Source: Pirellula sp. (GTDB lineage: Bacteria > Planctomycetota > Planctomycetia > Pirellulales > Pirellulaceae). From it: a DNA stretch of 56,316 bases. Below the pieces are notes generated by a model, which had not been told where the DNA came from, did not search any database, and saw only the letters and a program-made list of their open reading frames with translations. The first letter of the stretch is position 1; every line of letters begins with the position of its first letter. The position numbers and the translations under genes are program-made. Location of the stretch: assembly GCA_021300015.1 (NCBI GenBank), contig JAJTFB010000027.1, positions 1 to 56,316 of the forward strand. Direction: 5' to 3'. This document shows positions 23,348 to 47,317 of this stretch, one piece after another.

Positions 23348-23470
23348 AATGGCGTTGAATTAGTGTAAGCGGAAGTGCGCAAGCACTCCGGTGAGTGATG
23401 GAATATCCTAGGTATAGCAATGTTTCTCACCGGACGGCTTGCGCCGTTCCGCTTTTAATTCAACGCCATT
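23348..23470 (-). repeat. 123-bp inverted-repeat element, copy A
   Basis: The element is bounded by 15-bp perfect inverted repeats (AATGGCGTTGAATTA). Inside lie two large inverted arms that each fold into a hairpin with a GCAA loop. It matches copy B at 47195-47317 in opposite orientation, with 8 differences over the first 120 aligned bases and no gaps. An imperfect 11-base duplication (GGGCCCAGACC at 23336, GGGCTCAGACC at 23472) flanks it and could be a target duplication. It encodes nothing. It sits just upstream of the DUF1553 gene. Confidence 0.9.
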
Positions 23471-23573
23471 CGGGCTCAGACCTAAGGGGGCAGGGGAGTT
23501 CCATTATAGCACCCAAAACCTTCCATCCCCACCCGTAGCCAGCCTGCGAATGAAAATCCCCAGGCTCGATATC

Positions 23574-24341
23574 TCACTCCGATCGAATCGATACCGATTC
23601 GAGTACCGAGCCGCCCCCTGGGGCCGATTTCTCATCGGCCAAGTCAACAGAATCCAAGTCTACCTTGGCCGATATTCCCGTGGCCGATCCCACCGTAGCC
23701 GATACTCCCGTAGCCGATTCAACAGGGGCCGCATCCACCAAGGCCAAATCGGGAGTGTCTGGACCGACAGGGGGCAAAGCCGCCCGAGTCATCAGATCCC
23801 CATGAGCCGAGTCGGTTCGCACCGGACGCGTCGAGAGGGGCTTGCCTCGCATCACCAAGGTCACCAAAGTCCCTTCCTGTACCTTTTCACCCTTCTGGTT
23901 GAGTAACTGTCGGTACCAATGGACTTGGCCATGCCGACGACCATGCGACTTAAGGTCCACCACTTCCGTGACGGCTCTTACGGTATCGCCTGGGAAAATC
24001 GGCTTGCAAAAACTCCAATTGCGGACTTCGATCAAGGCGGCCGTCTGGACAAGCGGAGCCGTCGAACTGAGTCCCGCCAAAATCGACATCCCCAACATCC
24101 CGTGCGCTACGGGCTTACCAAAAGGTCCTTGGCTGGCGAATTCCTCATCGGTGTGCAACCGATCGTGGTCCCCTGTCAACTGCGCAAATTGCTCGATATC
24201 GCGAATCTCGATCGTTCGCGGTTCACTTTGCCATCGATCACCGATGCTCAAATCTTCGAAAGTCAGGCCGCCTGCATGGGTGATCATCGCTAGAACCAAG
24301 GCTTTCCGAAACCGGCCCGGAGCAGGGCCCTTGAAGAACAT
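23574..24341 (-). CDS. MaoC-type hydratase with repetitive tail
   Basis: A 255-residue protein. Residues 24-165 form a MaoC hot-dog domain with GLTFEDLSIGDRW, the catalytic-type segment LTGDHDRLHTDEEFA, then FGKPVAHGMLGMSI and KPIFPGDTVRAVTEV. Such enzymes hydrate trans-2-enoyl-CoA to 3-hydroxyacyl-CoA. The tail after residue 185 is low-complexity and contains pentapeptide repeats ending in SAT (VESAT, GVSAT, VGSAT, GISAK), encoded by 15-base repeats. The start may instead be the internal ATG at 24287, which removes 18 residues ahead of the domain. No other fatty-acid gene lies nearby. Confidence 0.85.
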   Translation of the reverse strand: MFFKGPAPGRFRKALVLAMITHAGGLTFEDLSIGDRWQSEPRTIEIRDIEQFAQLTGDHDRLHTDEEFASQGPFGKPVAHGMLGMSILAGLSSTAPLVQTAALIEVRNWSFCKPIFPGDTVRAVTEVVDLKSHGRRHGQVHWYRQLLNQKGEKVQEGTLVTLVMRGKPLSTRPVRTDSAHGDLMTRAALPPVGPDTPDLALVDAAPVESATGVSATVGSATGISAKVDLDSVDLADEKSAPGGGSVLESVSIRSE

Positions 24342-24408
24342 CGTTCGAGAGGTGTGGAGTGACTTTCAAGATTGTCCAGCACTTCGGATCGCTTCGCAAG
24401 TCCTTCTG

Positions 24409-24456
24409 TGTCAATCGCAGGCTATGTCAATCGCGGGCTATGTGAGTCACAGGTTG
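24409..24456. repeat. Three tandem 16-bp repeats
   Basis: TGTCAATCGCAGGCTA is followed directly by TGTCAATCGCGGGCTA and a more diverged TGTGAGTCACAGGTTG. They fill the gap just beyond the prs stop codon. They may be a small variable-number locus. Confidence 0.75.
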
Positions 24457-24458
24457 TC

Positions 24459-25421
24459 TCAGTGAATCGAGCCCCCGGCACCGAACATCGAACTGATCGA
24501 TTGGTTCGAATGGATTCGACGGATGGCCTCGGCCAGCAAAGGGGCCACCGAGAGCACAAAGATATTGTCGAGTTTCTTCTCGGCGGGCAAGGGGATGGTG
24601 TTGGTAATCACCAAGCTCTTGATCGGTGCTTCCTTGATCGATTGAATCGCTCGACCGCACAACACTCCATGGGTCGCGGCTAAGTGAATCTCCTTGGCAC
24701 CGGCTTCATGAACAAGTTTGGCTGCCCCGCAGATCGAACCGCCTGTGCTGATCATGTCATCGAACATCAAACAAATCTTCCCCTCGACCGGACCACCGAT
24801 GATGTTCCGCTGCTTGGTCTGAAGCGGATTGTCTCGGACCTTATCGATAATGGCGAGTTTGCCACCGATGCGTTTCGAGTGCCCAAAGGCCCGTTTGATG
24901 CTGCCTTCATCGGGGCTTACCACGACGATGTCCTCGGGGTCCAAATTTTGATTTTGGAAATACCTCGTCAAGGCCGGAGCGGCATACAAATGGTCGACCG
25001 GCACGTCAAAAAAGCCTTGGATTTGCGGGGCGTGCAGGTCCATTGCCAAGACCCGATCGGCACCGGCTCGGGTGATCAAATTCGCAACCAACTTGGCCGT
25101 GATCGGAGTGCGCCCCTCGTCCTTGCGGTCCTGGCGCGCATAGCCGTAATAAGGTATCACCGCAGTGATCCTCGCTGCGCTGGCACGCTTGCACGAGTCG
25201 ATCATGATCAAGAGTTCCATCAGGTTGTCGTTGACCGGCGGACAGGTCGGTTGGACCAGATACACGTCCCGACCTCGGACGTCCTCGTCGATCTTGCAAA
25301 AGTTCTCTCCATCGGGAAATTTGCCCAATTGGATCGCGCCGGTCTTGAGATGCAAAAAATCGCAGATCTCTTTTGCCAACTGAAGATTCGCGCGTCCACT
25401 GAAAATTTTTAACTCTTGCAT
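24459..25421 (-). CDS. prs: Ribose-phosphate pyrophosphokinase
   Basis: A 320-residue enzyme making PRPP from ribose 5-phosphate and ATP for nucleotide, His and Trp synthesis. Family segments are all present: KIFSGRANLQLA at the start, the flexible loop PYYGYARQDRKDEGRTPI, MDLHAPQIQGFF, VVSPDEGSIKRA and the PRPP loop MFDDMISTGGSI, where others usually have DDMIDTAGT. The length is typical. The start codon lies within the end of the glmU-like gene (13-base overlap), so the pair is translationally coupled. Confidence 0.97.
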   Translation of the reverse strand: MQELKIFSGRANLQLAKEICDFLHLKTGAIQLGKFPDGENFCKIDEDVRGRDVYLVQPTCPPVNDNLMELLIMIDSCKRASAARITAVIPYYGYARQDRKDEGRTPITAKLVANLITRAGADRVLAMDLHAPQIQGFFDVPVDHLYAAPALTRYFQNQNLDPEDIVVVSPDEGSIKRAFGHSKRIGGKLAIIDKVRDNPLQTKQRNIIGGPVEGKICLMFDDMISTGGSICGAAKLVHEAGAKEIHLAATHGVLCGRAIQSIKEAPIKSLVITNTIPLPAEKKLDNIFVLSVAPLLAEAIRRIHSNQSISSMFGAGGSIH

Positions 25422-26251
25422 CGATAGCCCAACTCTTTCATCTTGTCTTCAACCTTTTCAAGCTCTTCGATGGTGTTGATGCTGAGGGCTTCACAAGCCT
25501 TCAACGCCGCTAGGGCATCGACCCGGTCCCCTTGCTCCTTGAGAAGCGCAGGACAGTCCGTCAGATAGTACTCGTTTTGCGCGTTGTTGTTTTTCAGCCG
25601 CTCAAGAGCCCAAATCAGCCGATCCTGCTTGAACAGATACGTGCTCATGTTGACCTCTTGGATCTTTGCCTCCTGTGCCGATGCGTCTTTTTGCTCGACG
25701 ATCCTGGAAAAGCCACCCTGAGAATCCCGAACGATGCGGCCGAGCCCCTGCGGATCGGGTTTGATCAGTGTACCGAGCAAACAGGAGAAATCCCCCGAGC
25801 CAAACGCATGGAGCAATTCGCCAAGCGACGAAGACTGAACCAGCGGTGAATCGCCGGCTACGACCATCACCGGGCCCGCAACAGAGTCCGCCTGTGCTCG
25901 AAGCGATGGGACACACATCTGGACCGCATGGCCAGTTCCTAACTGCTGCTCTTGCAAGACGAACTCAACGTTTTTCCGCCCCTGAAGCTCTCGCCTTACA
26001 TCCTCGTGACGATAGCCTACGACCACCAAAACCCGAGTCACAGCAACCTGCTCCAAAGCATCGAGCACCCAATGAATCATCGGGCGACCAAGCACCGGGA
26101 AAAGAACCTTAGGCAAATCGCTCTTCATCCTTGTCCCTTTCCCGGCTGCCATCACAATGGCCGTGGCTCCACCTAAAGCTCCCGCATTTCGAGACAAGCT
26201 TTCTGCCGAATCGATTTTTGCCGCCGAATCCGTGTTTTCCGAAGGGTTCAT
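25409..26251 (-). CDS. glmU: UDP-N-acetylglucosamine pyrophosphorylase-type nucleotidyltransferase
   Basis: A 280-residue nucleotidyltransferase matching the N-terminal half of GlmU. It has the signature AIVMAAGKGTRMKSDLPKVL at residues 31-50, VLQEQQLGTGHAVQ, VVAGDSPLV and EYYLTDCPALL. It would join GlcNAc 1-phosphate and UTP. The C-terminal left-handed helix acetyltransferase half of bifunctional GlmU is absent, so acetylation must be done elsewhere. The start at 26251 has AGGTGA five bases upstream, and a TTG 43 codons earlier is unlikely. The order glmU-prs is also known from Firmicutes. Confidence 0.88.
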   Translation of the reverse strand: MNPSENTDSAAKIDSAESLSRNAGALGGATAIVMAAGKGTRMKSDLPKVLFPVLGRPMIHWVLDALEQVAVTRVLVVVGYRHEDVRRELQGRKNVEFVLQEQQLGTGHAVQMCVPSLRAQADSVAGPVMVVAGDSPLVQSSSLGELLHAFGSGDFSCLLGTLIKPDPQGLGRIVRDSQGGFSRIVEQKDASAQEAKIQEVNMSTYLFKQDRLIWALERLKNNNAQNEYYLTDCPALLKEQGDRVDALAALKACEALSINTIEELEKVEDKMKELGYRCKS

Positions 26252-26460
26252 GGTCACCTGGGGGCTCGTCAAGCCTTTGATAAGAGTTTCTAAGGGGTTC
26301 GTAGTCGAATGATCGCGTAAGGCAAGGCTTTCCCGGGAAGGGATATCTTGCCATAAGCGACCCGAGTCGAACAGGTCCAAGATTGACGAAAAATGGAGCT
26401 TCGACTATCGTTTCGCTCTGGAAATCCACCGTACTGCCTCCAAATTCCAAAGGATTCAAC

Positions 26461-26637
26461 ATGGCCAACGAACGACCCACCGAACTGCGCCGACGCCGAC
26501 AACGCAAAGCAAAGCTCACGCTCTTGAAGAAACGCTTGGATAAAGCCAGCAAATCCGAGAAGGCTGTCATCATTGCCAAAGTCCGACGTCTGAGCCCAGG
26601 GGCCGAACAACTCCTGGCCAATTGGAAGGTCTCCTAA
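26461..26637 (+). CDS. Small basic protein, DUF6800-like
   Basis: A 58-residue, strongly basic protein beginning MANERPTELRRRRQRKAKL and ending with AKVRRLSPGAEQLLANWKV. It resembles DUF6800, a small planctomycete family of unknown function. I judged this from memory of the pattern. AAAGGA precedes the start at 26461, and a longer upstream frame is unlikely. It is divergent from the glmU-like gene and 62 bases ahead of the epimerase. The basic N-terminus might bind nucleic acid or the ribosome. Confidence 0.7.
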   Translation: MANERPTELRRRRQRKAKLTLLKKRLDKASKSEKAVIIAKVRRLSPGAEQLLANWKVS

Positions 26638-26699
26638 GTCTTCGAAGCGAAGTCTTCGAAAGCTTAGCCGTCGACAGCCGAAGGAAATCCTCCAAAGAC

Positions 26700-27926
26700 A
26701 TGCACTTGCTCATCACCGGCGGCTGCGGCTTTGTCGGCTCGAGAATCGCCAAATGGTTTCTAGCCAATGGGCCTGCAAGTTCTGGCAATGCATCCTCCGG
26801 AAGCTTCACCCCAGCGCTCCAAATCACCCTGGTCGACAATCTCATGCGACCAGGCAGCCAGACCAATCGCGCACCCCTGGAATGCCTAGGCGCTGAGGTC
26901 ATCCTCGGAGACCTTCGCCACCGAGATTTCGTCGAATCGCTCCCAGCTTGCGACTGGGTGATCGACTGCGCAGCGAACCCCAGTGTGCTTGCTGGTTTGG
27001 GCTCTTCGGCTCTCTGTGCCCCACCGAGCACCCCTTCGCAAGCAACCCAAAGTCCCTCGCAAACCCTCGTCGATCACAATCTCGGGGGGACGATCCACCT
27101 GCTAGAGTACTGCAAACGGCATCGCGCCGGGATGGTCCTTTTGAGCTCCTCGCGAGTCTACTCCATCCGGGAACTCTCGGGCATTCCCCACCAGATCAAG
27201 AACTCCGTGCTGGAGTTCGATTGGGATCGCATCGAATCGGAAAACCTCATCCCCGGACTCAGCCGCCAGGGCATCGACGAACGCTTCAGCGTCGAGCCCC
27301 CCTTGTCCCTCTACGGAGCGACCAAGCTCGCTTCGGAGTGGTTGGCCAAGGAATACTCGAGCGCCTTCGATTTCCCCCTGTGGATCAACCGCTGTGGAAT
27401 CCTTGCCGGATCAGGCCAGTTCGGAAAAGCCGACCAAGGCATCATCACGTATTGGATGCATCGGTTCCTCTACCGACATCCACTCCGAATGCTCGGTTTC
27501 CAAGGCTCAGGAGCCCAAGTCCGCGACTGCTTGCACCCTGAAGACCTCGCGCGTCTGATCCATCGGCAAATCAGTGCCTCCCAGGGACTGCAAACCCAAC
27601 ACCCCGCTCAAAACCACCCATCGTTCCGATCCAAACCTATCACGGTCAATGTCTCGGGCGGGATCGAATCGGCCTTCTCCTTACAGGAGCTCCACGAATG
27701 GTGCCTACGGCGCTGGGGCTCAGACCGATTCGGAGCGGCCTGCGAACTCCAACGCATCGACCAACCTCGCCCCTACGATGCACCTTGGATCGTCCTAGAT
27801 TCCAACAAGGCACGGCAAACGTGGGATTGGGAACCGTTGCGCGACCGACTTTCGATCTGGGAAGAAATCGCCGAGCATGCCGAGGAAAATCCCAATTGGC
27901 TACAAATCTCAGGTGGCATCGACTAA
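26700..27926 (+). CDS. NAD-dependent epimerase/dehydratase, CDP-paratose epimerase-like
   Basis: A 408-residue extended short-chain dehydrogenase. The NAD-binding GGCGFVGS is at residues 7-14. The catalytic residues appear as LLSSSRVYSI (Ser) and SLYGATKLASEW (Tyr-x-x-x-Lys). The downstream segment, GQFGKADQGIITYWM then GSGAQVRDCLHPEDLARLI, is most like CDP-paratose 2-epimerases (Tyv) among nucleotide-sugar epimerases. The likely job is modifying a nucleotide sugar for envelope polysaccharide. The start at 26700 puts the Rossmann strand at the N-terminus. Substrate cannot be told from sequence. Confidence 0.85.
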   Translation: MHLLITGGCGFVGSRIAKWFLANGPASSGNASSGSFTPALQITLVDNLMRPGSQTNRAPLECLGAEVILGDLRHRDFVESLPACDWVIDCAANPSVLAGLGSSALCAPPSTPSQATQSPSQTLVDHNLGGTIHLLEYCKRHRAGMVLLSSSRVYSIRELSGIPHQIKNSVLEFDWDRIESENLIPGLSRQGIDERFSVEPPLSLYGATKLASEWLAKEYSSAFDFPLWINRCGILAGSGQFGKADQGIITYWMHRFLYRHPLRMLGFQGSGAQVRDCLHPEDLARLIHRQISASQGLQTQHPAQNHPSFRSKPITVNVSGGIESAFSLQELHEWCLRRWGSDRFGAACELQRIDQPRPYDAPWIVLDSNKARQTWDWEPLRDRLSIWEEIAEHAEENPNWLQISGGID

Positions 27927-27973
27927 AATCCTCCCATGAAGTCCGCCCCCTTATTCTTACGATCGCAAACGCC

Positions 27974-28597
27974 ATGAGCTCTTACTCTTTTGAGTCCCCC
28001 CTGGAACCAAATACCTCCGGATCCTTTGAGCAGCCTAAAGGGCTCTCGACTGCGACGATGATCGCCACGATCCTTATGCTCATTTTTGGGCTCTCCGGAT
28101 TGATGGGAATCATCGGGCTTTTAGCCTCGTTAGCGACCATGGCCGGCGGGCCTGCTCCCGGAGCCAATCCACCCGCCGGACTCAAACTCAACGCGATTCA
28201 AATCGGATTGAGCATCTTTGACATCTTGCTCTCGATCCCGTTGGTAGTGCTGAGCATTATGGTGCTCCAACGAAAACGTTTTGCTGCCGTGTACCTCTCG
28301 TGGTTAGCCCTTGCCCTGGCTCTCCTTACCATCCCCCGCGCAATCCTGACCTATGTTCTTTCTCCGCAGATTATCGAAAGCATCAAAGCGGGCATTCAGC
28401 AAGCCCAGCAACAGCAACCCAACGGCAACATGCGAGCCGAGGATATCGATATGATCATGCAAATCGCAAAATATGCCTTACTCGGATGCTCCGGGGTCAG
28501 TCTCTTGGCCACCTTCCTGGTCTACATGTTCGGCTTCCAGCAACTTCGCAAACCTTCGACCTTGGAACGACTCTCGACGCAGACGAGCACTCCATGA
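27974..28597 (+). CDS. Four-helix membrane protein of unknown function
   Basis: A 207-residue inner-membrane protein with hydrophobic segments near residues 28-55, 75-95, 100-125 and 165-185, and a Gln/Asn-rich loop near 138-150 (QQAQQQQPNGN). I do not recognise a family. The start at 27974 gives the usual short polar N-terminus. A frame reaching back into the epimerase gene is a shadow. Its stop overlaps the coaD start in ATGA, so the two are translationally coupled. Confidence 0.75.
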   Translation: MSSYSFESPLEPNTSGSFEQPKGLSTATMIATILMLIFGLSGLMGIIGLLASLATMAGGPAPGANPPAGLKLNAIQIGLSIFDILLSIPLVVLSIMVLQRKRFAAVYLSWLALALALLTIPRAILTYVLSPQIIESIKAGIQQAQQQQPNGNMRAEDIDMIMQIAKYALLGCSGVSLLATFLVYMFGFQQLRKPSTLERLSTQTSTP

Positions 28598-29112
28598 CCA
28601 AACTCTCAGCTCGCAAAGCGGTCTATACCGGGTCATTCGATCCGATCACCCTCGGACACCTGCACATCATCGAACGCTCCTGTGTGCTGTTTGACCAACT
28701 CGTCATCGGCATCGGGGTCAACCAAGAAAAAAAACCCCTTTTTGAAATCGAGGAACGCTTAAGGCTCGTCGAAAAAGTCACTGAGCACCTCCCGAACGTC
28801 TCGGTCTGCTCTTTCGATGGACTCGCCGTCGACTTTGTCCGCAAGCTCGGAGCCAAAGTCATGGTCCGGGGCGTTCGCCCCCTGACGGATATCGCCGGCG
28901 AGTTCACGATGATGATGGCCAATCGACAACTCGATGCCGACCTCGAAACCGTCTTCCTGATGGCCGATGAGGAATTCGTCCACGTCTCGAGCAGCCTGAT
29001 CAAACAAATCGCAAGCTTAGGACATGGCCGGTCGCTCGAAAAGTTCGTCCCTGAGGCGATTATCCAACCCCTGCTCGAACGGGTAAAAGCTCCCTCCACG
29101 GATGAATCCTAG
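28594..29112 (+). CDS. coaD: Phosphopantetheine adenylyltransferase
   Basis: A 172-residue enzyme for the penultimate step of coenzyme A synthesis: 4'-phosphopantetheine plus ATP gives dephospho-CoA. It shows VYTGSFDPITLGHLHII (nucleotidyltransferase T/HxGH motif), RGVRPLTDIAGEFTM and the C-terminal VSSSLIKQIASLG. The length is slightly above the usual 160. Its start overlaps the preceding membrane-protein gene by 4 bases, and its end overlaps the aminotransferase pseudogene by 11. Confidence 0.97.
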   Translation: MTKLSARKAVYTGSFDPITLGHLHIIERSCVLFDQLVIGIGVNQEKKPLFEIEERLRLVEKVTEHLPNVSVCSFDGLAVDFVRKLGAKVMVRGVRPLTDIAGEFTMMMANRQLDADLETVFLMADEEFVHVSSSLIKQIASLGHGRSLEKFVPEAIIQPLLERVKAPSTDES

Positions 29113-30363
29113 ACGTCCGCGCGGTAGCCATCGGAGCTATGACCCACTGAGCCACCTCGTCTTCCTGCGGAGCCAAGGGGAATACGTCTGGGATGAGCAA
29201 GGCAGGAAGTACTTGGATCTGATCTGCGGTTATTCGGCCTGCAACCTCGGACACGCACACCCCCGACTGACCGCCGCAGTGTGCGAGCAAATCTCGGAGC
29301 TGACGTGGGCACACGGAGGGCAATCTCAACTGAGGTCCAGACTCGAAGAGACCCTCGGGAGCCTCTGGGACCAAAACACGCCCCCAGGTCGCAAGCCCCA
29401 TCGGTACTCCAAAGTGTGGCTGACCGTCAGCGGTGCAAGAGCCATCGAGATCGCGTGGAAACTCGCCTACGCAAAACGACCAGGAAGCACCATCGGTTTC
29501 GATCTGGCCTACCACGGACGCTCGTTGGCCAGCGCCCTCTTGAGCGATACCGAACGCTCCGAAGCGTTCGGTCCGCATGGGTCGATTGAAAACCATGCGA
29601 CAATCCCATTTCCACGCCACCTCCATGGTCTGTGTGCTCCCATCCTGATGCCTGATGCCTGCAATGATGCCAGCAGCAATCCCCAGGAAGCTCATGCGGA
29701 AAAGAGCCCCTTGTGCGCCGAATGCCAGCGGGCCCTTGAACAAGCAAGCCAGACATTTGAGAAGCTCAAGTCACGAGCCTCGATCCTTTTTGTCGAGCCG
29801 GCTATCGGTGCCCGAGGCTACTACTTCGCACCGGCAGCCTTCATGCAACGACTTGTCGCTTTGGCCCGAAGCTATGACCTGGCCATCGTCTCCGACGAAA
29901 TCCAAATGGGACTTCGCCGAACAGGCCCGATGTTCCTGTGCAAAGGGCAAGCCTGGGAACCCGATCTACTGGTACTAGGAAAGTCCCTCGGAGGCGGAAT
30001 CCTACCTATCCCATGGCCTGCCGATTGGCGCTCGAAACACTCGAAATTCTCCAAACGCCAAATCTCCGATCCGATATTGAACGCAAGGGGGATTTTTTTC
30101 GTAGTCTGCTTAGCACCCATTTGCCCGAACCGCTTGTGACTCTGGGCTCCGGACTGGCCTGCTGTGTAAGCTTCGAGAACTTTCCGAATTCGGGATCCGA
30201 ACTGGCATTCCAAGTCGTGAAAAAACTCGCCGACCAAGGGGTCTTGATCCACCTGACAGGCCCCAAACGAAACCGTATCGCCGCGATCCCATCGCTCCTG
30301 ATTCAAGAATCCAGTCTTGAGATGGCGGCTCGAAGCATCCTCCGGGCCATCGAGGAATCCTAG
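29102..30363 (+). pseudogene. Class III aminotransferase broken by a deletion and frameshift
   Basis: The first frame (29102 to about 30010) gives a good class III PLP aminotransferase: YLDLICGYSACNLGHAHPRL, FDLAYHGRSLASAL, VSDEIQMGLRRTG (cofactor Asp) and the Schiff-base Lys in VLGKSLGGGILPI. Directly after LPI the frame turns to nonsense, but the next frame continues with PMACRLALETLEIL and the normal C-terminal domain to 30363. The stretch that relatives have between these points, including the substrate-side loop before the conserved HPLAC-type segment, is missing, roughly 25-40 residues. So this is a deletion with a frameshift, not a simple base error. The family includes acetylornithine and ornithine aminotransferases. 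It overlaps coaD by 11 bases and precedes the M50 gene. An assembly error cannot be excluded. Confidence 0.8.
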
Positions 30364-30418
30364 GGTTCCGAATGCGATCCATCGACGACCTACTCCATCC
30401 AAGGACAACCATAAAGCT

Positions 30419-31246
30419 ATGATCGGCGAACCACCCCCGAGCCAATACGATTGGCGATTTAACTTTTTGGGATTCCCCATTCGCGTGACTTGGCTTTTCT
30501 GGCTCATCACCGCAGCCCTGGGCTACAGCATCGCCATGAGCGCCAACCAACTCTTCTCGCGTATCGGCCAATCCCCGGGTATCGCGCCACTGCTAGCCAT
30601 CTGGGTCGCATGCGTGATGGTCTCGGTCCTGATCCACGAACTCGGACACGCACTTGCATTCCGATACTACGGGATCGAATCGCAAATCGTGCTCTACCAT
30701 ATGGGGGGCTTAGCGATCCCCACGGCCGGCTTTTCCTTCAATCGCTCAGGGGCTCGCTACCGCCTCAAGCACATCGACCACATCGTGATCTCACTTGCCG
30801 GACCACTGCTCCAGTTCGCATCGGCGATCCTGGTCGCAGCGATCGCCTATGCCATGGGTGTATTTGTCCCAAGCGCCGCAGACTTCGTCGAGTGGATCAA
30901 ACCCCGTGGCGTCGAGAATCCATGGACCCAAGGGGACTTGGGCATCGGCAATCCGTGGACTTACACCATGCTGAATTTCTACATCCTAGTAAGCATTTGG
31001 TGGCCGCTGCTGAACCTGCTTCCGGTCTATCCCCTCGACGGAGGACATGTCGTGCAGCATACCGCTGCGATCCTTCGCAGGACCGACGGATACAACGAAG
31101 CCTACCTCATCGGCGCTGGAGTCGGATTCCTCGTCGCTTGGTGGTTCTTCCAAAGCGGCAACCCGATCAACGCGCTGCTGTTTTTGTCCCTCGCGATGAA
31201 CAATGTGCAAGCCATGCAACGCTTCGGTGGTCCTCCAGGATGGTGA
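30419..31246 (+). CDS. M50-family site-2-type protease
   Basis: A 275-residue membrane metalloprotease. About six hydrophobic segments surround the zinc site: HELGH in VLIHELGHALAFRYYGI and the third ligand in NLLPVYPLDGGHV. Such proteases cut proteins within the membrane, often anti-sigma factors, but no partner is shown by the context. The start at 30419 leaves a short cytoplasmic tail, and a frame running into the aminotransferase remnant is discounted. It is the last gene of the + strand run from coaD. Confidence 0.9.
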   Translation: MIGEPPPSQYDWRFNFLGFPIRVTWLFWLITAALGYSIAMSANQLFSRIGQSPGIAPLLAIWVACVMVSVLIHELGHALAFRYYGIESQIVLYHMGGLAIPTAGFSFNRSGARYRLKHIDHIVISLAGPLLQFASAILVAAIAYAMGVFVPSAADFVEWIKPRGVENPWTQGDLGIGNPWTYTMLNFYILVSIWWPLLNLLPVYPLDGGHVVQHTAAILRRTDGYNEAYLIGAGVGFLVAWWFFQSGNPINALLFLSLAMNNVQAMQRFGGPPGW

Positions 31247-31965
31247 TCGCGGAAAAAAAATCAAAATTTTTTTGACCTCGAAGCAACCCATTCTCGGCCT
31301 CTTGCAGGGCACTCGAGCGTACGCAAAGCGATCGCTCAAGCATCCCTCGATCGATCGCAAAAAACCAATCCAGAACCCTCCGATCCTAAGCGCCGCACTA
31401 CAGGCTTGAGCGCAACGTTTTGTTAGAAAAACCTCCCCCTTAGCGTGCGGTTGAAGCTTCCGGACTAAGGACCGATCTACTGCCTGCACCCTTTATTTTC
31501 GTTGACGAAAAAGATCTTGCGACCCTGACGCGAAACCGCAACCCTGGCTCCTAAGCAATCGCAAAACCAAAAAGCATGTTTTGCGAACATACGTTTATAG
31601 CGATTAACCTAACACTTGTTCGCACAGAAGCTCAGACACGACAAACCTTCTATTGATATCCAGTCGATAAGGCCTCTAGAGTCCAAGCCACATGCCCTCT
31701 TGAGGTTCAACATCCTGAAAAAAATCGTTTCATGTTTGTGGAAAAATTGTCGAAAAGATGTTGCATTCAAGTTCGAGTTTTATACAACTACTTGGAACTA
31801 TGGTGTCCATAGCTCAAACGTTCGATCCTGTCACGGATCGATAGGTCATACGACCAGATCGAAAGTTTGCGGCGAAGGACGTTTTGTTTCGGTTGTCGGG
31901 TTCGACCCCTTGAGTCTGCTGCTTCGGACAAAAGGTGTCGCGACAATCATCATGTTTGGTTTATT
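31247..31965. other. Long leader region before the H1-like gene
   Basis: About 720 bases with no convincing gene and a visibly higher A+T content than the flanks. The frame of the H1-like gene stays open back to 31616, but the codons there lack the Lys/Ala pattern and no good start precedes them. The region probably holds the H1-like promoter and a long untranslated leader. No tRNA, riboswitch or known small RNA was recognised. Confidence 0.5.
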
Positions 31966-39202: not shown

Positions 39203-39266
39203 GTGAGATTGGCAGGAATAGACTCGCTCGGGTCGGAGACCCAAGCTACGTTGGCTCCTCTAGCCT

Positions 39267-39851: not shown

Positions 39852-40788
39852 GACCGTCTGCTCCACGACGAGGAAAATACCTTATGCCTAAGCCCACGAG
39901 AATCATCAAACCACCGACCCAAGTCCACCAACTCGGAGCCCGATAGTCCGGATCCCCATGACGCACCCAATGCACCCACACCGGCAATAACACCGGCTCT
40001 AAAAGTGTAATCAAACTCGCGATGTGACTCGGGGTCGTTCGCAAGCCCTGCGCAAAAAGCCAATAAGGCATCCCCATCTGCAAGACCCCTATCCCAATCA
40101 AAAGCGGCCACATCCATCCAGTCGGATGCTCCACTCCAAAACTCCAAACCAACGGAAACATCACCAAAGCAGTCACCAGATGGTTCAACGCGATGAGCCA
40201 AGCCGAATCCAAATGCCTCAACGATCGCAAGGACAATATAACCCCCGCATAAAGCACACCGCTGGCTAGAGCCAACCAAGGCGACCACCACCGATCCGAT
40301 GGACTCGACTGTGCATAACTCATCTCCATGACCAATAGAAACAACACCCCTGCGATGCACCATCCCAACATCCACCAATCGCTTCTGAGCGTCGGCTCGC
40401 GAAACCAATAAACCGTCGCCAACATCACCCAAACCGGCGCTAGATTCTGTAGCCAAATCGCATTGGCCGGGGGCCCGCTGACCAACGCGGTCAAATAGGT
40501 CCAATTCATCATCGCAAAACAGATCGTCATGGGCAACAACTGCCATACCCATGTCACCCGGCGCACCAACGGCACCAAAATGCACAGCGCAAAAACCGCT
40601 CGCCAAAACGCTAAGGTCGCCCCGCGATACTCCAAGGGCCATCGATCAAACTCCGGCGATCTTGCAAAGAAAGCGCTCGTGCTCCATAGCACCGCCGCCA
40701 TCACGCATAAGAACGGACCCCAGCCAAAACCGCCAATCCAATCAGAAAACTTTGGCGTATCGCCTGATACTCGATCCGGTGGCTTCAT
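39832..40788 (-). CDS. DMT-superfamily transporter (EamA type)
   Basis: A 318-residue inner-membrane transporter with about ten helices in two EamA repeats. The first opens with GPFLCVMAAVLWSTSAFFAR. The second opens with WWSPWLALASGVLYAGVI and ends in SLITLLEPVLLPVWVHWV. Trp content is high. Family members export metabolites or sugars, and the substrate cannot be predicted. It lies 36 bases after rsmH and its end overlaps the TerB-like gene, so the three may form one unit. Confidence 0.85.
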   Translation of the reverse strand: MKPPDRVSGDTPKFSDWIGGFGWGPFLCVMAAVLWSTSAFFARSPEFDRWPLEYRGATLAFWRAVFALCILVPLVRRVTWVWQLLPMTICFAMMNWTYLTALVSGPPANAIWLQNLAPVWVMLATVYWFREPTLRSDWWMLGWCIAGVLFLLVMEMSYAQSSPSDRWWSPWLALASGVLYAGVILSLRSLRHLDSAWLIALNHLVTALVMFPLVWSFGVEHPTGWMWPLLIGIGVLQMGMPYWLFAQGLRTTPSHIASLITLLEPVLLPVWVHWVRHGDPDYRAPSWWTWVGGLMILVGLGIRYFPRRGADGHESDIG

Positions 40789-40824
40789 ACAGAATTAGCA
40801 GTCCAAAGTGCCCCTAGGAAGAAC

Positions 40825-41859
40825 TTAGTTTTCAAACGCCCGTCGCGCAATACGCAACTTGGCAGATCGACTCCGAGGATTCGCATCGGTCTCGGCTTGC
40901 GTGGCTACCAACGGTTTTTTTGTCAAATTCTCTAACCGCGAATCGTCGCGTATCGCATTTTTGACCATCCGATCCTCCAGAGAATGAAAGGAGATAACCG
41001 CCAACCTACCGGCAGGCTCAACCCCGCACGACTCGGCCGATGGGACTTCCGGGCTGGGAACCGCAAGCAACCCTGGTAGTCTGGCCAATCCAGCCTCGAC
41101 ATGCTCAAGCTCCCGATTGACCACGATCCGCAACGCCTGAAACGTCCGCGTCGCCGAATCGACCCGACCATGCACCCGACCAGGCACCACGCGATGGATC
41201 AAATCCGCAAGCTGCTTGCTGCTCATGATCGGTTCGCTGCGATTCTGCTCGACAATCGCCCTGGCGATCCTCCGACTCAAACGCTCTTCACCAAACTGAT
41301 AGATCGCATCGGCAATCTCCGTATCGCTGTGCTGCTGCAACCACTTCCAAGCCGGTACTCCCACCGTCATGTCGAAACGCAAATCCAATGGAGCATCAAG
41401 CCGAAACGAAAAACCACGCTGCGTGTCGGCTAACTGATCGCTCGATAACCCAAGATCCAACAAAATCCCATGCACCCGAGGAATCCCAAGCCCCCCGAGC
41501 AAATCCCCTAAATTGCAGTAGGAGCCGCATGCCAACGTCAATCGACATCCCGAAGGTAGCTCCAGATCCTCGAGCCCCCATCGACCTCGCTCCCCGAGAT
41601 CCATAACTCCACCGACTGATGTCCGAGGGTACTGACTATGCGCAGAAACAAATTCGCGAATCGCTCCAGGATCGCGGTCGATCCCAAGAATCCGATCCCC
41701 CGAGCCAAGTCGCTTGGCGATCTCGAGCGTATGTCCACCACCACCAAAGGTACCATCGACAATCACCAATGGGGCGCGGCCTGGAATCTCAGGACTCAAT
41801 CCCCCAAGCCACTCGCGGAGAATCGGTTCGAGTAGTACTGGGATGTGGATCGAAGGCAT
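40825..41859 (-). CDS. rsmH: 16S rRNA (cytosine1402-N4)-methyltransferase
   Basis: A 344-residue RsmH/MraW enzyme that methylates N4 of C1402 in the 16S rRNA decoding centre using SAM. It shows HIPVLLEPILREWL, the SAM motif VDGTFGGGGHTLEI, ILGIDRDPGAI, the family's GILLDLGLSSDQLADTQRGF, and near the end AVISFHSLEDRMVKNAIRD. In many bacteria this gene opens the dcw cell-division cluster with mraZ and ftsI. Here none of those neighbours is present, which fits the scattered or lost dcw cluster of planctomycetes. Confidence 0.96.
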   Translation of the reverse strand: MPSIHIPVLLEPILREWLGGLSPEIPGRAPLVIVDGTFGGGGHTLEIAKRLGSGDRILGIDRDPGAIREFVSAHSQYPRTSVGGVMDLGERGRWGLEDLELPSGCRLTLACGSYCNLGDLLGGLGIPRVHGILLDLGLSSDQLADTQRGFSFRLDAPLDLRFDMTVGVPAWKWLQQHSDTEIADAIYQFGEERLSRRIARAIVEQNRSEPIMSSKQLADLIHRVVPGRVHGRVDSATRTFQALRIVVNRELEHVEAGLARLPGLLAVPSPEVPSAESCGVEPAGRLAVISFHSLEDRMVKNAIRDDSRLENLTKKPLVATQAETDANPRSRSAKLRIARRAFEN

Positions 41860-42332
41860 AAAAGAAAAAAAAGGCCGGTCGGGGAAGATGCACTGGGTTT
41901 CAAGGTCCCGGTGGCATCAATTCCACCGCTCCCTCCATCGCAGCATGCACTCTGATATTCCATTCAACGCGCCGTGCTGGTAAACCGAACCGATGAAGTT
42001 CGATCCTCTTCGAGCGTGCGTGCTAAGCGCTTCTCGGGCAACCCCCTCTGCTCAGGAAGTTGACGCTCTGAGCCCGTGGCCGCGAGACTCAGTTGCTACC
42101 CAAAAAAAGCCTCTCACATCGCTTCGATGGTCCAAGCATCCCACCTCCCGACCGGCTGGGGTTCGAGCTGTAGTTTGTCCCCTTACGATAACCGAAAGGG
42201 GGGCAGATTGACTACCTATTTTTTCCGAATTCTCTCCCCGCAACCCCCAAAAACCCGAGCGATTTGCTAGCATTTTTATTGATAAATCGACCCTCGCCCA
42301 ATCCGGCCGTCGGCCTCTAGACTCCCTAACCA
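41860..42332. other. Gene-free divergent region
   Basis: A 473-base stretch between the divergent rsmH and acyltransferase genes. The short open frames in it are unconvincing. A run of eight A just upstream of rsmH and an A+T-rich patch at 42210-42285 may be promoter regions, but no clear -35/-10 pair stands out. No structured RNA was recognised. Confidence 0.45.
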
Positions 42333-43298
42333 ATGACCCGATATGGACTTAAGCTACATCGGGTCGAAAGCCTGATTATGGCCATTACGGCATTAAACGT
42401 ACTACTTCTGATCCTGGGTGCGATCGGATTGCTCCTGATCTGGCTACTGCTCCGCCCCGGAAAGTACTCCCCTTGGGAACGTATTCTCTACGGGCCGATC
42501 TACGTGATGGCCCGCTATCTCTGGAAAGCCGAAATCTTCCGACAAGATCCAGCGACCGGGAAATGGGAACCCTCGCCATGCCTGATCGCCGATGCGTCCG
42601 ACCTGCTCGAACCAAATCCAGCAAACCCAAACCCCTACTTCGGTACCTGCAAGCATCGTGGCGCGGTGCTCGTGGCCAACCACCGCTCTTCGGTCGACCC
42701 ATGCTTTATCCAACTAGCCGCTGGCGATCGGGTCCACTGGATGGTCGCAGGCGAGTACTTTAAAGTCCCTCTTGTCGGTCAACTGCTTCGATCCTTTCAA
42801 TGCATCCCAACCAACCGAGGGGGAATCGACACCGCGTCGACCAAACGCGCGATCGAATTGGCCAAACAAGGTCGCTTTGTGGGTATGTTTCCCGAGGGAC
42901 GCATCAACCGTACGGATCAGGATTGGATGTCGGTCCGCCCCGGAGCGGCGCTCGTGGCCCTGCGAGGACGCGTACCTTTGATACCCATCTGGATCCAAGG
43001 CGCTAGGATGGGCAAGTCGGTCGTTAGCCCCCTTTTTATGCCCACCTCGGTCAAGGTCTTTCTGGGCAACCCTGACTATTGGGGGCTCGAACAACTCGAT
43101 CTCCAAGACGGACGATCCGATCGCCAAATCGCCGACCAATGGATCCAACGCGTCCTGAACGACTGCGTTCAAAACGCTTGCGGCCGCTGCAAATCGATCG
43201 AACTGGCCGGCTCAAACTGGCTCAATGCCACGGATTCTCCAACGGATAATCCAGCCCCTCAGACGGATACACACGACTCGCAAAATCCGAACGCATGA
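42333..43298 (+). CDS. 1-acylglycerol-3-phosphate acyltransferase-type protein
   Basis: A 321-residue membrane-anchored PlsC-family acyltransferase. The catalytic motif is NHRSSVDP (HxxxxD). It is followed by IPTNRGGIDT and the substrate motif FPEGRIN. One helix, near residues 17-40, anchors it. The likely reaction is acylation of a lysophospholipid, possibly in phosphatidic acid synthesis. The C-terminal 25 residues are polar and probably disordered. An alternative start at 42378 lies right at the membrane helix. Confidence 0.88.
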   Translation: MTRYGLKLHRVESLIMAITALNVLLLILGAIGLLLIWLLLRPGKYSPWERILYGPIYVMARYLWKAEIFRQDPATGKWEPSPCLIADASDLLEPNPANPNPYFGTCKHRGAVLVANHRSSVDPCFIQLAAGDRVHWMVAGEYFKVPLVGQLLRSFQCIPTNRGGIDTASTKRAIELAKQGRFVGMFPEGRINRTDQDWMSVRPGAALVALRGRVPLIPIWIQGARMGKSVVSPLFMPTSVKVFLGNPDYWGLEQLDLQDGRSDRQIADQWIQRVLNDCVQNACGRCKSIELAGSNWLNATDSPTDNPAPQTDTHDSQNPNA

Positions 43299-43317
43299 GA
43301 CGACCGAAACGCTTCCT

Positions 43318-44160
43318 CTAGTCCCCGAGCGTCCAGTCCTCCTGGCCGTTTCTTGTGATCATCGCCGCCAAAACACTCGGCTTGCAATGATTCGACACAA
43401 AGAGCGTTCGGCCACAAGCAAACAAAACCATCGCGCCGTTGCGGTGGTGGGATCGGATCTCGTTGTCCATGGCCCAAGCCCTCGGGTCGTTGATCCCTCC
43501 GGACTGCTCGAAGATGTTGCTACCGTTGATCCACTCACCATCCGGACCGCCCGTGTCCTCGGCTACCGCCGCGGTGAACGTCAGACCATCGCGTATGTCC
43601 CGAAACTTGAACGGCTGGTTGTACACAAACACACCGTTGTCGGTGTTGATACGCGTGGTGATCCGCTGTCCGTAAAGCCCACCATAGTCGGTTTTGCCCG
43701 ATTTACCCTCAAGCGTCGGAACGCTCGGACAGACATAGGTCGCCACGTTGGTCTTGCGCGCCCTGGCATTGATCGGATGGTCGAAAGGATGATCGAAATC
43801 GACCAACGCATGGACGTTCTGCGCTTCCATGTAAGGCAAAATCAGCGCAGACCACGCGTAGTTCTTAAGAAAACTCGGGCCATTGAACGGACGCCACTGC
43901 ATGCACCCAGGTGGCAACGTCCGAAGCACCGAATGGTAGTTGTGAAGCGCTAAACCTACTTGGCGAAGGTTGTTCTGGCATTGCGCCTGACGGGCCATTT
44001 CGCGCGCACTTTGAACCGCAGGCAACAGAAGCGCAGCCAGAATGCCCATGATCGATACGACGACCAACAACTCAACGAGCGTCACACCCCTGGGCATCAC
44101 TCGTCGGTCCGCCAAACGGTTCGCCCGAAGGTTCACCCGTACTGAAATTCTAGATCCCAT
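43318..44160 (-). CDS. DUF1559 pseudopilin-like protein
   Basis: A 280-residue protein of the DUF1559 family, greatly expanded in planctomycetes. The N-terminus has a type IV prepilin leader ending in [20 protein letters not shown], with Glu at +5 and a hydrophobic helix. [20 protein letters not shown] opens the DUF1559 domain, and [20 protein letters not shown] is near its end. It is probably cleaved by a GspO/PilD-type peptidase and exported. Function is unknown. I chose the ATG at 44160, and a GTG three codons earlier is possible. Confidence 0.93.
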
Positions 44161-44327
44161 TCCAATCACAACACCCTATCGCTCAACGGCATGGACTCGC
44201 CGAAGATCTAACGTTGCGCCAAGAGGTGCAACGTGTTCTCCGGTGCACCGACGTTCCGATAGGGTATCGTAATTCGCTCAAACCGGCCAGATCCACCAAG
44301 GAATCAAATAACCGACTCGCGCCAACT

Positions 44328-44549
44328 CTAAATCACCCCGCCATGGGTCCTGTAAGGACTCATGTGGTCAGGCTGATCGAGGAACCAAAAACGTTCCCAC
44401 TCCTGAACCATCGCCCTGAGGTTTTCCGAAGTGAAAATCAACTGCTCAGCCCGTCGGCCAGGCAGTGCGGAGTAAATCGGTATGGCACATCCGACCATCG
44501 GTACGGTCGCCATCGTCAACAACAAGCACATTAGTATTCGACGTCGCAT
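44328..44549 (-). CDS. Small lipoprotein, planctomycete type
   Basis: A 73-residue protein with a lipoprotein signal (MRRRILMCLLLTMATVPMVGC, Cys21). The short mature part ends in EWERFWFLDQPDHMSPYRTH followed by GGVI, a pattern I recall from small planctomycete proteins of unknown function. It lies 22 bases beyond the HU gene on the same strand, so they may be cotranscribed. Function unknown. Confidence 0.7.
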   Translation of the reverse strand: MRRRILMCLLLTMATVPMVGCAIPIYSALPGRRAEQLIFTSENLRAMVQEWERFWFLDQPDHMSPYRTHGGVI

Positions 44550-44571
44550 CGGTTCTCACTCCGTGAACAAG

Positions 44572-44979
44572 CTATCCTTGTGTTCCTGCCTCCGATTCCC
44601 CCAGGCTCTCGTCGACCATAGACCCCTCCTCATCCTCCGACACAACCTCCAGTTGCCCAGATGCTACCGCGTCGCGAATGGCTTGGGCAAGCGGTGTAGT
44701 GCCTATGGCATTGACCCGCTCCTCCATGACCTTCCCAGGCTTGAAGCTCACCACGAACTTTTCGGGGACTTCTACCTGCCTGCCCGTCCGCGGATTTCGT
44801 GCCTTCCTGGCCGCCCTGGGACGCACCTGGAAAACCCCAAAATTCCGCAACTCGATCCGGCCCTCTTCCACCAACGTCTGAACAATCGAGTCGAACGTCT
44901 TCTGGACGACTTGCTTGATCTGCTGCTGATTGAGTCCCGTCTCATCGGAAATCGTTTTCACGATCTCTTTCTTTGTCAC
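44572..44979 (-). CDS. hup: HU-family DNA-binding protein with acidic tail
   Basis: A 135-residue protein. Residues 1-92 are an HU/IHF domain: [40 protein letters not shown], and the DNA-intercalating arm [15 protein letters not shown] with Pro. Residues 93-135 are an added tail rich in Glu, Asp and Ser. The acidic tail could modulate DNA binding. It is one of two nucleoid proteins in the window with the H1-like protein. A dyad 46-69 bases upstream may be a control site. Confidence 0.95.
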
Positions 44980-45024
44980 AACAGAATTCCCCGCACTTCA
45001 AGGCACCCTAAGTCTTTTACTAGT

Positions 45025-45048
45025 TAGACTTTAATGCCGAAAAGTCTA
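45025..45048. promoter_or_regulatory. Dyad upstream of the HU gene
   Basis: TAGACTTT and AAAGTCTA, separated by 8 bases, are centred about 57 bases before the HU start. It could be an operator. No regulator is known for it. Confidence 0.35.
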
Positions 45049-45329
45049 GGTCGCTATTCCGTAGCCGTCAAGGTATTCCCAAACGGGATCAACCCTGCCG
45101 ACCGGACAATCCAGACGATCGTTATGGGTCTTTTCGGTCATACAACCCGCAAATCTTCACTCCGAAACCAAAACCTAACCACTTTTTCCTAGTCCAGAAA
45201 AAAGCATAAGTTTTACTGTTCAAGCGATCCTGACCCCTTCTGGCCTGGAGTCCGACCCGAAGTTTTTGCTATGAATCCCTCCAAGCTTTCCCCAATCGTA
45301 CCCCACTTCATTCGATTCCCCAGGTGCGT

Positions 45330-46058
45330 ATGTTGCCCTACCAGCCTCGGCTTGCATCCCAAGGAACCCTTTCGGGTATCCTCGTCCTTGCGCTCCTCTC
45401 GCAAGGCTGCATCGATGGCCCGTTCTTCCAACTCAAAAAACTCAACCCCTACATCCAAAACCAATGGAAACAAGACCGCGAGAAAGTCGTCGTCTTCTCC
45501 GAACGCATCGAGGAACTTCGCCTCCTACGCACCCAATTTGCCTCGATGGAACCCCAGGAACAAAACGACTGGATCTCCAAACTCGGACAAATGCTCAAAA
45601 GCGAAACGAGCCCCGAAATCCGACGCGAAACCGTCCTGACTCTCGACCCCGTCAAACAAAATCCCCAAGCCCTTGAAATCCTGACCCCACTTGCCAAAGA
45701 CAAGAACGAAAAAGTTCGCTTGGCCCTCGTCTCGACCCTTCGAAACACCCAAACAGAATCCTCCACCAATACGCTCATCGCCATGGCCTCCTCAGATCCG
45801 AGCAACAACGTCAAACTCTCCGCCACACGCGCCCTGGGAAGCCACAACTCGGATGCAGTCAAACCATTCCTCGGTGCCAAACTCGACGACCGGAATATCG
45901 CGATGCGATTCCAAGCCTCCCAAGCTCTCGGGGAACTGACCGGCAAACGTTACGGAGGCGATATCGATGCCTGGCGACAGTACCTGGCCGGTCAAGATGT
46001 CCCCGAACCCGAACTCTCCCTGGCCGAAACCCTCGAATCGATGCTGCTGCTTCGATAG
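45330..46058 (+). CDS. HEAT-repeat exported protein
   Basis: A 242-residue protein. A signal covers residues 1-27 and ends in LSQGC, an imperfect lipobox. The mature part has HEAT-like helical repeats: SPEIRRETVLTLDPVKQNPQ, NEKVRLALVSTLRNTQTESS, NNVKLSATRALGSHNSDAVK and NIAMRFQASQALGELTGKRY. Such repeats form protein-binding scaffolds. The ATG at 45330 is preferred to a GTG two codons before. It lies 62 bases ahead of the Coq4-like gene on the same strand. Confidence 0.75.
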   Translation: MLPYQPRLASQGTLSGILVLALLSQGCIDGPFFQLKKLNPYIQNQWKQDREKVVVFSERIEELRLLRTQFASMEPQEQNDWISKLGQMLKSETSPEIRRETVLTLDPVKQNPQALEILTPLAKDKNEKVRLALVSTLRNTQTESSTNTLIAMASSDPSNNVKLSATRALGSHNSDAVKPFLGAKLDDRNIAMRFQASQALGELTGKRYGGDIDAWRQYLAGQDVPEPELSLAETLESMLLLR

Positions 46059-46120
46059 CACCCCCGGGTCCTTGGCCCAACCCCGGCCACATCGTAAAAT
46101 TCCCTAAAAGGAACTCACCG

Positions 46121-47176
46121 ATGCTATCGACCTGGCCCTGGCGATCCGAATCCCAAGCGGTCTTCTGGACCGACCGTCTTGACCATTTCTCATCGACCGC
46201 CAAACTCGATCCCCAAGCCGTGCGGCTCTCGGCCCACTGGTGCCTTCTGTGGGACCGACAAATCTGCATCGAACTCGTCGGAGATGCACAAGACCAATTC
46301 GAAATCGCGGCGCTTCATACCCGATCGCTCAACGCCGAATCGTCAGGCAAAACACCCTTCTGGGAACACCCCACCCTGGTCGTTCAAACCCTCGAACGCT
46401 TCGAGTCCCTCCACCCCATAACCGAGATAACCGAGGACCCCGGAAACCAAACCCGAAATGCTTTCGCCAATCTCCTTTTGGAAATCATCAAGCAGGAAAC
46501 CCAAGCATGCTTGGCCGACTCCCATCAACTCGGTCGCGACGGATTTCTCTCGCAAACGGCCAAGCTAGCCGATCCCGAATCGCTGTTCCTAACACTCGAT
46601 GGCAAAAAAGTCGATTCCAACATTCAAACCCGCTACTGGGGACACTGGTTCCCCGGCCTGTCCAATGACGATCGCAAAATTTGCGACTGGCTTGCGGCTC
46701 TCCCGGGCGCGATCGACGCCGATATCCCAGAGGTCGTCCGACGCTTGGAAAATCCATCGAGTCCCACCGCGCTGCCGGGCGCTGTAACCCTAGGACGGCA
46801 CGATGTCCTCCACATCCTCTTGGGACGTGGACTGCTCGACCAAGACGAAGCTTTCGTTATCGGCTTTACCATGGGCAATGCTTCGCAATACCGCGATGAC
46901 GATGGAATCCTCATGCGCCAAGCTCTAGCCCATTGGTACCCGGAACCCTTCCGTATCGGTGGCTCCAAACTCCAGGTCTTCGACCTAGGAGTCCAAGCTG
47001 GCAAATCCATGGGAATCCCCGACATCGCTCAGATCCCCATCGAAAATCTCGGTTCCCGGTCCCTTGCCGACGCTCGCCAAGAACTGCAAATCTCCACCGA
47101 CTTGCTGCGAAGCTTCTACCACCAGGAAAAGCAATCGATCCGAAACTCGCTCGAAAGCGGCAGACTCCCGGGATAA
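46121..47176 (+). CDS. Coq4-like protein with HDxxH-x11-E site
   Basis: A 351-residue cytoplasmic protein. His227, Asp228 and His231 (LGRHDVLHILLGRGL) and Glu243 spell HDxxH-x11-E, the metal-binding signature of Coq4, the ubiquinone-synthesis scaffold. DEAFVIGFTMGNASQYRDDD follows, also in the Coq4 style. The N-terminal 200 residues are unlike Coq4 and I do not recognise them. AAGGA eight bases upstream supports the start. No quinone gene is nearby, so a role in quinone synthesis is only suggested by the motif. Confidence 0.65.
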   Translation: MLSTWPWRSESQAVFWTDRLDHFSSTAKLDPQAVRLSAHWCLLWDRQICIELVGDAQDQFEIAALHTRSLNAESSGKTPFWEHPTLVVQTLERFESLHPITEITEDPGNQTRNAFANLLLEIIKQETQACLADSHQLGRDGFLSQTAKLADPESLFLTLDGKKVDSNIQTRYWGHWFPGLSNDDRKICDWLAALPGAIDADIPEVVRRLENPSSPTALPGAVTLGRHDVLHILLGRGLLDQDEAFVIGFTMGNASQYRDDDGILMRQALAHWYPEPFRIGGSKLQVFDLGVQAGKSMGIPDIAQIPIENLGSRSLADARQELQISTDLLRSFYHQEKQSIRNSLESGRLPG

Positions 47177-47194
47177 AACGCCGAATCAGCCCCG

Positions 47195-47317
47195 AATGGC
47201 GTTGAATTAAAAGCGGAACGGCGCAAGCCGTCCGGTGAAAAACATTGCGATATCGAGGACATTCCATCGCTCACCGGAGTGCTTGCGCACTTCCGCATCC
47301 ACTAATTCAACGCCCCA
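47195..47317 (+). repeat. 123-bp inverted-repeat element, copy B
   Basis: It matches copy A (23348-23470) in opposite orientation. The left terminal repeat AATGGCGTTGAATTA is intact. The right one is intact for 12 bases and then diverges (CCA for ATT). The two inner hairpins are the same as in copy A. It fills the space between the Coq4-like gene, ending at 47176, and apbE. Its right end lies inside the 3' end of apbE and supplies that gene's stop codon. Confidence 0.9.

Follow-up and report, generated by a model that had tools for sequence, protein, structure and literature searches.

The 56,316-nucleotide stretch analysed here (positions 1 to 56,316 of contig JAJTFB010000027.1, Pirellula sp. 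assembly GCA_021300015.1; hereafter the window) carries two copies, A and B, of a 123-bp element. This element is very probably a non-autonomous miniature inverted-repeat transposable element (MITE) of an insertion sequence (IS) in the IS4 subgroup of the IS4 family, and its interior is a head-to-head doublet of repetitive extragenic palindromic (REP) hairpins that resembles a REPIN (REP doublet forming hairpins). The support at the sequence level comes from ends held in common with a complete IS4-family IS, 11-bp duplications at a fixed register, empty palindromes and covariation of the hairpins. The element is short, non-coding and present in many copies, it shares its terminal repeats with an IS, and it is flanked by a duplication that is clear in 17 of the 39 copies compared, all of which is characteristic of a MITE. 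The ends, the fixed-length target duplication, the target palindrome and the matching autonomous IS together point to an IS4-family DDE transposase as the mover, in place of the Y1 transposase, or REP-associated tyrosine transposase (RAYT), suggested by the original prediction from the letters of the window.

Two copies of the 123-bp element

Copies A and B, the latter inverted, are identical at 112 of 123 positions in a gap-free alignment, which bears out the roughly 91% identity first reported. Both inner GCAA hairpins, with their compensatory stems, are present in copy A and found again in copy B. The 15-bp terminal repeats ascribed to each copy are perfect in copy A and at the inner end of copy B, but the outer end of copy B is degenerate (TGGGGCGTTGAATTA). 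The features in the window are as follows.

23347..23471, plus strand: MITE copy A with its terminal bases, being the 123 bp at 23348-23470 and one variable base on each side (compare the IS4-subgroup end consensus, -AATR)
23348..23362, plus strand: left terminal inverted repeat of copy A, AATGGCGTTGAATTA; the next three bases, GTG, are also those at one G010 IS end
23456..23470, minus strand: right terminal inverted repeat of copy A, reading AATGGCGTTGAATTA then AAA on the minus strand; the other G010 IS end has AGG
23370..23390, plus strand: left REP-like hairpin of copy A, CGG-A-AGTGC-GCAA-GCACT-CCG
23431..23451, minus strand: right REP-like hairpin of copy A, inverted, CGG-A-ACGGC-GCAA-GCCGT-CCG
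23391..23430, plus strand: stretch between the hairpins of copy A, spacer included
23336..23346, plus strand: left copy of the 11-bp target duplication of copy A, GGGCCCAGACC
23472..23482, plus strand: right copy of the 11-bp target duplication, GGGCTCAGACC, 10/11 identical to the left
47195..47317, minus strand: MITE copy B, inverted, with a degenerate outer end; its flanks agree at 3/11 in the fixed register, so that a target duplication is unrecognisable
47214..47238, plus strand: REP-like hairpin of copy B with the ACGGC stem (25-base pattern match)
47271..47295, minus strand: REP-like hairpin of copy B with the AGTGC stem (25-base pattern match)
47302..47304, minus strand: in-frame TAG from the outer end of copy B, which terminates an ApbE-family open reading frame (ORF) at 47302-48312

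The Pirellula genome itself (G000) is a draft of 4.26 Mb in 160 contigs and 80.8% complete, and the relatives searched are drafts as well. It contains 17 places that cover at least 120 of the 123 query positions, plus several partial copies, and the hairpin pattern has 35 matches in it against 0 for the reversed control. The 123-bp strand folds much more stably than its dinucleotide shuffles (DNA parameters, z = -9.75; RNA parameters, z = -10.35, for an RNA fold of -70.4 kcal/mol). Taken together, the copies, the hairpin control and the fold scores indicate that the element is not a chance arrangement. At least 19 of 40 genomes, this one included, have some match to the unit, and near-full copies occur in the congeners G010, G014, G019 and G001, the best of them 93-96% identical. 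The element is a mobile repeat. None of the three loci checked matched an Rfam family.

Terminal repeats shared with an IS4-family insertion sequence

The element ends conform to the pattern GGCGTTGAATTA, which also occurs as two inverted copies 1.5 kb apart on contig C219 of G010. These bound an IS (L336) that has the same perfect ends as the MITE and encloses a 474-aa transposase ORF, which scores 190 bits with NCBIfam IS4_1 (cut-off 115), also matches Pfam DDE_Tnp_1, and has no match among solved structures up to E 0.1. The terminal repeats were rightly taken for MITE ends, and they are those of an IS4-family IS. Members of the IS4 subgroup are described as having the end consensus -AATR--------WTW, a YREK motif and duplications of 10-13 bp (PMC2266710; this and the other papers cited below are drawn on in excerpt). 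In the single-ORF L336 transposase, the YREK motif, Y-2-R-3-E-6-K, is YGLRWEAELDIRCLK at residue 336. The IS is 1539 bp long counting one variable base per side, within the 1400-1650 bp of the subgroup, and both of its ends read G AATG GCGTTGAA TTA, in conformity with the consensus. One end runs TTAGTG, as does the left end of the MITE. The 123-bp element therefore resembles the IS4 subgroup in its end consensus, its ~1.5-kb partner with YREK, and a duplication within the 10-13 bp range (PMC2266710, in excerpt). It is unlike MITEs derived from DDE-type IS in that it holds a folded REP doublet and is not simply an internally deleted IS, and by eye no IS sequence continues past 16-18 bp.

A search of 60 genomes, the Pirellula genome included, with the transposase at E 1e-60 gave matches in 5, with the same element in G010 alone. 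The match in the Pirellula genome is a relative on contig C52 (42% identical protein). Two further contigs of that genome, C103 and C115, terminate within IS ends of the MITE type (96% and 92% identical), and because they break off there, a copy of the IS is probably present but unassembled. The C52 relative is a second IS4-type IS of 1539 bp (L357 1325-2863); its ends differ (AATGTCGCAAGG), and its 11-bp duplication, GGGACGAGCCC, is exact and located in another palindrome.

Target duplication and target site

The 11-base flanking duplication originally noted at 23336 and 23472 proved to be an 11-bp target duplication when the flanks of many copies were compared. This comparison took in 39 copies of the 123-bp family, of a related 111-bp family (described below) and of their length variants, with the variable terminal base counted as element; tandem-array copies of L071 were excluded, as was any copy whose ends had more than 4 mismatches. 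Flank identity averaged 7.26/11; when the flanks were re-paired the mean was 5.06 +- 0.27, and the highest of 2000 such shuffles reached 6.18. Flanks agreed at 9/11 or better in 17 copies, a level attained by 5.4% of random pairings. No flank-identity signal was seen in four shifted registers. Before exclusions, the 13-bp flanks of 46 copies gave 7.11 against 5.59 +- 0.29. In some copies below 9/11 the two flanks derive from different palindromes, and low identity may reflect decay or recombination between copies.

The strict target form GG[CG]-N5-[GC]CC is found at 22 of the 78 flanks, where the background is 73 sites in the whole 56,316-base window; counts of this form set against that background indicate a target preference that is strong and not exclusive. 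The 11-bp target often lies at the centre of a 36-bp palindrome, CTTGGCCCCGCCGGCATAAAGCCGACGGAGGCCAAG, which is a repeat in its own right. Uninterrupted 36-bp palindromes with at most 3 mismatches number 3 in G000, 12 in G010, 28 in G014 and 14 in G019 against 0 for the reversed control, and 0 in G001, G009 and G020.

Several observations weigh against assigning the element to an IS4-subgroup IS. The G010 IS itself has flanks (GGCTTTATGCC and GGCGTAAAGCC) that agree at just 8/11, where the subgroup makes a 10-13 bp duplication; no other complete IS with such ends was found in the 60 genomes searched, and none is assembled in the Pirellula genome. The right end of the MITE reads TTAAAA and the second IS end TTAAGG, with just one base in common past the 15-bp repeat. 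Among the 39 copies, 22, copy B included, fall below 9/11 flank identity, and the strict target form stands on both flanks in just 6 and on at least one flank in 16. Finally, a tandem array in G014 (L071) resembles amplification of REPs or of bacterial interspersed mosaic elements (BIMEs) more than it does cut and paste. This array (G014:C97, 2000-3080) comprises eight matches to the 123-bp unit spread unevenly over 1.1 kb, the commonest step being 138 bp, and the outer palindrome is incorporated into the repeating unit.

Genomic placement

In the Pirellula genome, 16 of the 17 copies lie outside ORFs of at least 150 aa. Neighbouring ORFs of that length were called to the left and right of 16 copies, and for 9 of these the two neighbours converge; the ORF calling was crude and ATG-only throughout. 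Copy A has a PSCyt1/DUF1549/DUF1553 gene on one side and a MaoC-like gene on the other. Copy B overlaps the end of an ApbE-family gene (window 47302-47317), and the MITE end is the source of its stop codon.

This placement, the very stable RNA fold and the stop codon furnished to the ApbE gene would all suit a unit that works mainly in transcription, as a strong bidirectional terminator or a stabiliser of mRNA ends, which would be compatible with movement as a MITE. We consider this an unlikely primary account, since it leaves the target duplications and the IS ends unexplained, and since selection against gene disruption would likewise yield intergenic placement.

Interior hairpins

The hairpin GCGGAA-N4-GCAA-N4-TCCGGTGA occurs in at least 115 stretches across the genome collection. 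Pairing was counted by hand in 80 of these (71 planctomycete and 9 others), with the pattern itself fixing one of the five pairs. Allowing G-U, all five inner pairs of the first hairpin were present at 61/71 planctomycete loci and at 0/9 of the others, and at least four at 71/71 planctomycete loci. In a wider set, 294 hairpin instances include the stems ACGGC, AGTGC, ACAGC, AGGGC and more, each with its matching partner, and the 72 distinct stem types average 4.07 of 5 pairs versus 3.25 +- 0.08 when shuffled. With an anchor blind to stem and loop, TAGCGG-15-CCGGTGA, 133/146 instances are fully paired; with the foot AAGCGG instead, the figure is 78/109. The loop is GCAA or GCGA in 141/146 and 104/109 of these, respectively, counts in which the GCAA loop is favoured because the loci were partly collected through GCAA patterns. 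The hairpins thus covary across the wider Pirellulaceae REP family, so that the earlier claim of a structure under compensating change holds there.

Within the 123-bp family itself (32 copies) the arms are nearly invariant, with both-side changes in 3 cells belonging to two copies. The covariation score of the local hairpins is 0.037 versus 0.019 for shuffles, none of 500 shuffles being as high, although related sequences can exceed shuffles without structure. The minimum-energy fold of the whole 123-bp strand is a single long hairpin; the differences between the arms fall in two 2x2 internal loops of it, and the local hairpins are each perfectly paired. The long hairpin was rejected as a selected structure, having no covariation excess (58/500 shuffles as high).

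Paired stems may also be kept by template-switch repair of quasi-palindromes, which copies one arm to the other and generates perfect palindromes without selection. This would concern the hairpins only, and the paucity of both-side changes in the 123-bp family, in just two of 32 copies, is in its favour. We regard it as improbable, because several stem types are paired with a loop that is nearly always GCAA or GCGA (again among loci partly gathered by GCAA), and copying by itself cannot conserve a loop.

The doublet has two inverted REP hairpins and a spacer, as REPINs do. The GTAG foot that distinguishes REPINs and GTAG REPs is absent from the 123-bp family, whose hairpins have GTAAG and AAAAG feet; GTAG or TTAG is found in many relatives. 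In the excerpted literature, GTAG REPs form sub-families with alternative complementary stem residues and dimers with GTAG outermost, R. baltica being among the hosts (PMC3733652), and Pseudomonas REPINs show compensatory changes (PMC3116915). A word search for planctomycete terms in PMC2817692 gave zero matches. Four loci in Pirellulaceae-type genomes (L200, L209, L213 and L226) contain regular tandem arrays of REP hairpins, with steps of ~83, 84, 210 and 131 bp.

Related and nested elements

Two other MITEs likewise have REP-type hairpins between terminal repeats. In G020 and G023 (L342-L352), a 111-bp MITE shares its ends with the 123-bp element and encloses a GTAG REP doublet of its own, whose arms are GTAG-CGGAAGTT-GTAA-AACTTCC and GTAG-TGGAATCTC-GTGA-GAGTTCC with GNRA loops, and 7/9 aligned copies have GTAG in each arm. 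One copy (L351) is a 71-bp internal-deletion form with a clean 11-bp target duplication. In G001:C25 (L078 1111-1360), a ~250-bp element with ends AATACCGTCAAATCG interrupts a 123-bp copy in its right hairpin; a 10-bp duplication, GGCTTGCGCC, stands on either side of this insert and two inverted GCAA hairpins lie inside it. Its ends satisfy the -AATR part of the consensus and not the WTW part. In the Pirellula genome, C116:1-113 and C66:5-112 resemble the two sides of such a nested composite elsewhere, with flanks GGCATGACGCC and GGCATGAAGCC, and we infer that they belong together as one nested site. In L162, apparently from G010, the start of the 123-bp ends is fused to the interior of the ~250-bp element.

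From these three cases (the 123-bp, 111-bp and ~250-bp MITEs) we put forward, tentatively and at somewhat less than even odds, that REP doublets have been enclosed repeatedly by IS4-type ends in the Pirellulaceae, spreading by a DDE transposase and not by a RAYT, with the hairpins serving as landing sites. As GC-rich REP hairpins are targets of the same class of element, every insertion would bring new targets with it and so lead to nesting.

Y1 transposases

Y1 transposase genes (PF01797) occur in 36 of 40 genomes, the Pirellula genome included. The three found in the latter have none of these hairpins in their scanned flanks. Across 65 Y1 loci, some representing one gene twice, three had a hairpin match: L097 at ~4 kb, L284 with a chance-like match, and L301 with hairpins adjoining the gene. 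In L301 (G044), a GCAA-type REP doublet lies ~67 bp beyond the stop of a RAYT gene (1085-1875) that scores 57 bits with NF047646, below the cut-off of 80. As a query against 40 drafts, the Pirellula genome included, this RAYT matched only weakly (E 1.7e-5 to 4.8e-4) in G014, G019 and G001 and not at all in G000 or G010. A scan for GTAG hairpins over 31 loci (L301 and L306-L335) turned up a doublet in L321 and L322 (G023 and G020); it is head-to-head, has another stem and lies ~30 bp past the stop of related RAYTs (1397-2187). A RAYT as the mover is unsupported by the PF01797 search, the hairpin scan of Y1 loci and the L301 search. No cognate RAYT flanked by the REP was found in the Pirellula draft, and elsewhere L301 is the one candidate. 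The search for a transposase gene with the same ends produced the DDE-type IS in G010 and no REP-type RAYT in G000 or G010. A RAYT may have given rise to REPs of this broad kind, but the 123-bp unit persists, as far as these drafts show, without a RAYT.

That the element is a REPIN or BIME moved by a RAYT, its terminal repeats a mere extension of the REP arms, is very unlikely: the head-to-head REP-type hairpins with GNRA loops and compensatory stems, their wide occurrence among Pirellulaceae REPs, the G014 array and the RAYTs of L301, L321 and L322 all speak for it, but the GTAG foot is gone, the terminal 15 bp are the property of a DDE-type IS, a fixed 11-bp target duplication is in keeping with DDE chemistry and not with that of Y1 transposases, RAYT matches in the congeners are weak or lacking, and a single Y1 locus of the 65 has this hairpin adjoining the gene.

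Discussion

Our analysis suggests how a MITE of the IS4 subgroup with a REP interior might operate. An IS4-type DDE transposase would recognise the AATGGCGTTGAATTA ends and move the unit by cut and paste. The preferred insertion sites would be 11-bp palindromes rich in G and C, either GGC-N5-GCC or GGG-N5-CCC, and these 11 bp would be duplicated. In the wider Pirellulaceae REP family, REP-type hairpins would be held folded by selection, probably through REP binders, candidates for which are RAYT, gyrase and RNA-processing enzymes. The transposase of the G010 IS would move the MITE in trans, and the hairpins inside it would be passengers or helpers and not transposition ends.

Parallels exist for each part of the element. 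ISRm22 is an IS4-family element with a palindromic target, nine copies of which lie within REPs (PMC1525189, in excerpt), and the palindromic target of the 123-bp element is similar. With REPINs and BIMEs (PMC3116915) and with GTAG REPs (PMC3733652), as far as the excerpts of these papers describe them, it shares an inverted hairpin pair, a spacer, compensatory stems, tandem clusters and a mostly intergenic position. It differs from them in its DDE-transposon ends, 11-bp target duplication and degenerate GTAG foot, and no adjacent RAYT was found in the hosts of the 123-bp family. RAYT genes of P. putida and P. fluorescens are surrounded by double inverted repeats in which degenerate GTAG units are joined to unrelated stem-loops (PMC3733652, in excerpt). 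The 123-bp element is like these in fusing REP units with unrelated inverted repeats and unlike them in its partner, which is a Y1 gene there and a DDE-type IS4-family IS here. The original prediction knew of no description of such an element, which agrees with the literature searched as regards the chimera (titles and abstract openings, with most subscription journals outside this coverage, describe no IS4-type MITE enclosing REP doublets). Its two halves, an IS4-type MITE and a REP doublet, are of known kinds; their combination and its recurrence were not found in that literature.

Two mobile-DNA systems, the ends of a DDE-type IS and repeats of the RAYT type, appear to have merged in one element. 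The prevailing view is that each REPIN needs a dedicated RAYT. If our reading is correct, DDE-type MITEs would be a second route for the spread of REPs, which would help to account for REPs in genomes where a RAYT is not found, and the element would provide a natural test of what selection maintains in a REP hairpin that is no longer moved by its own transposase.

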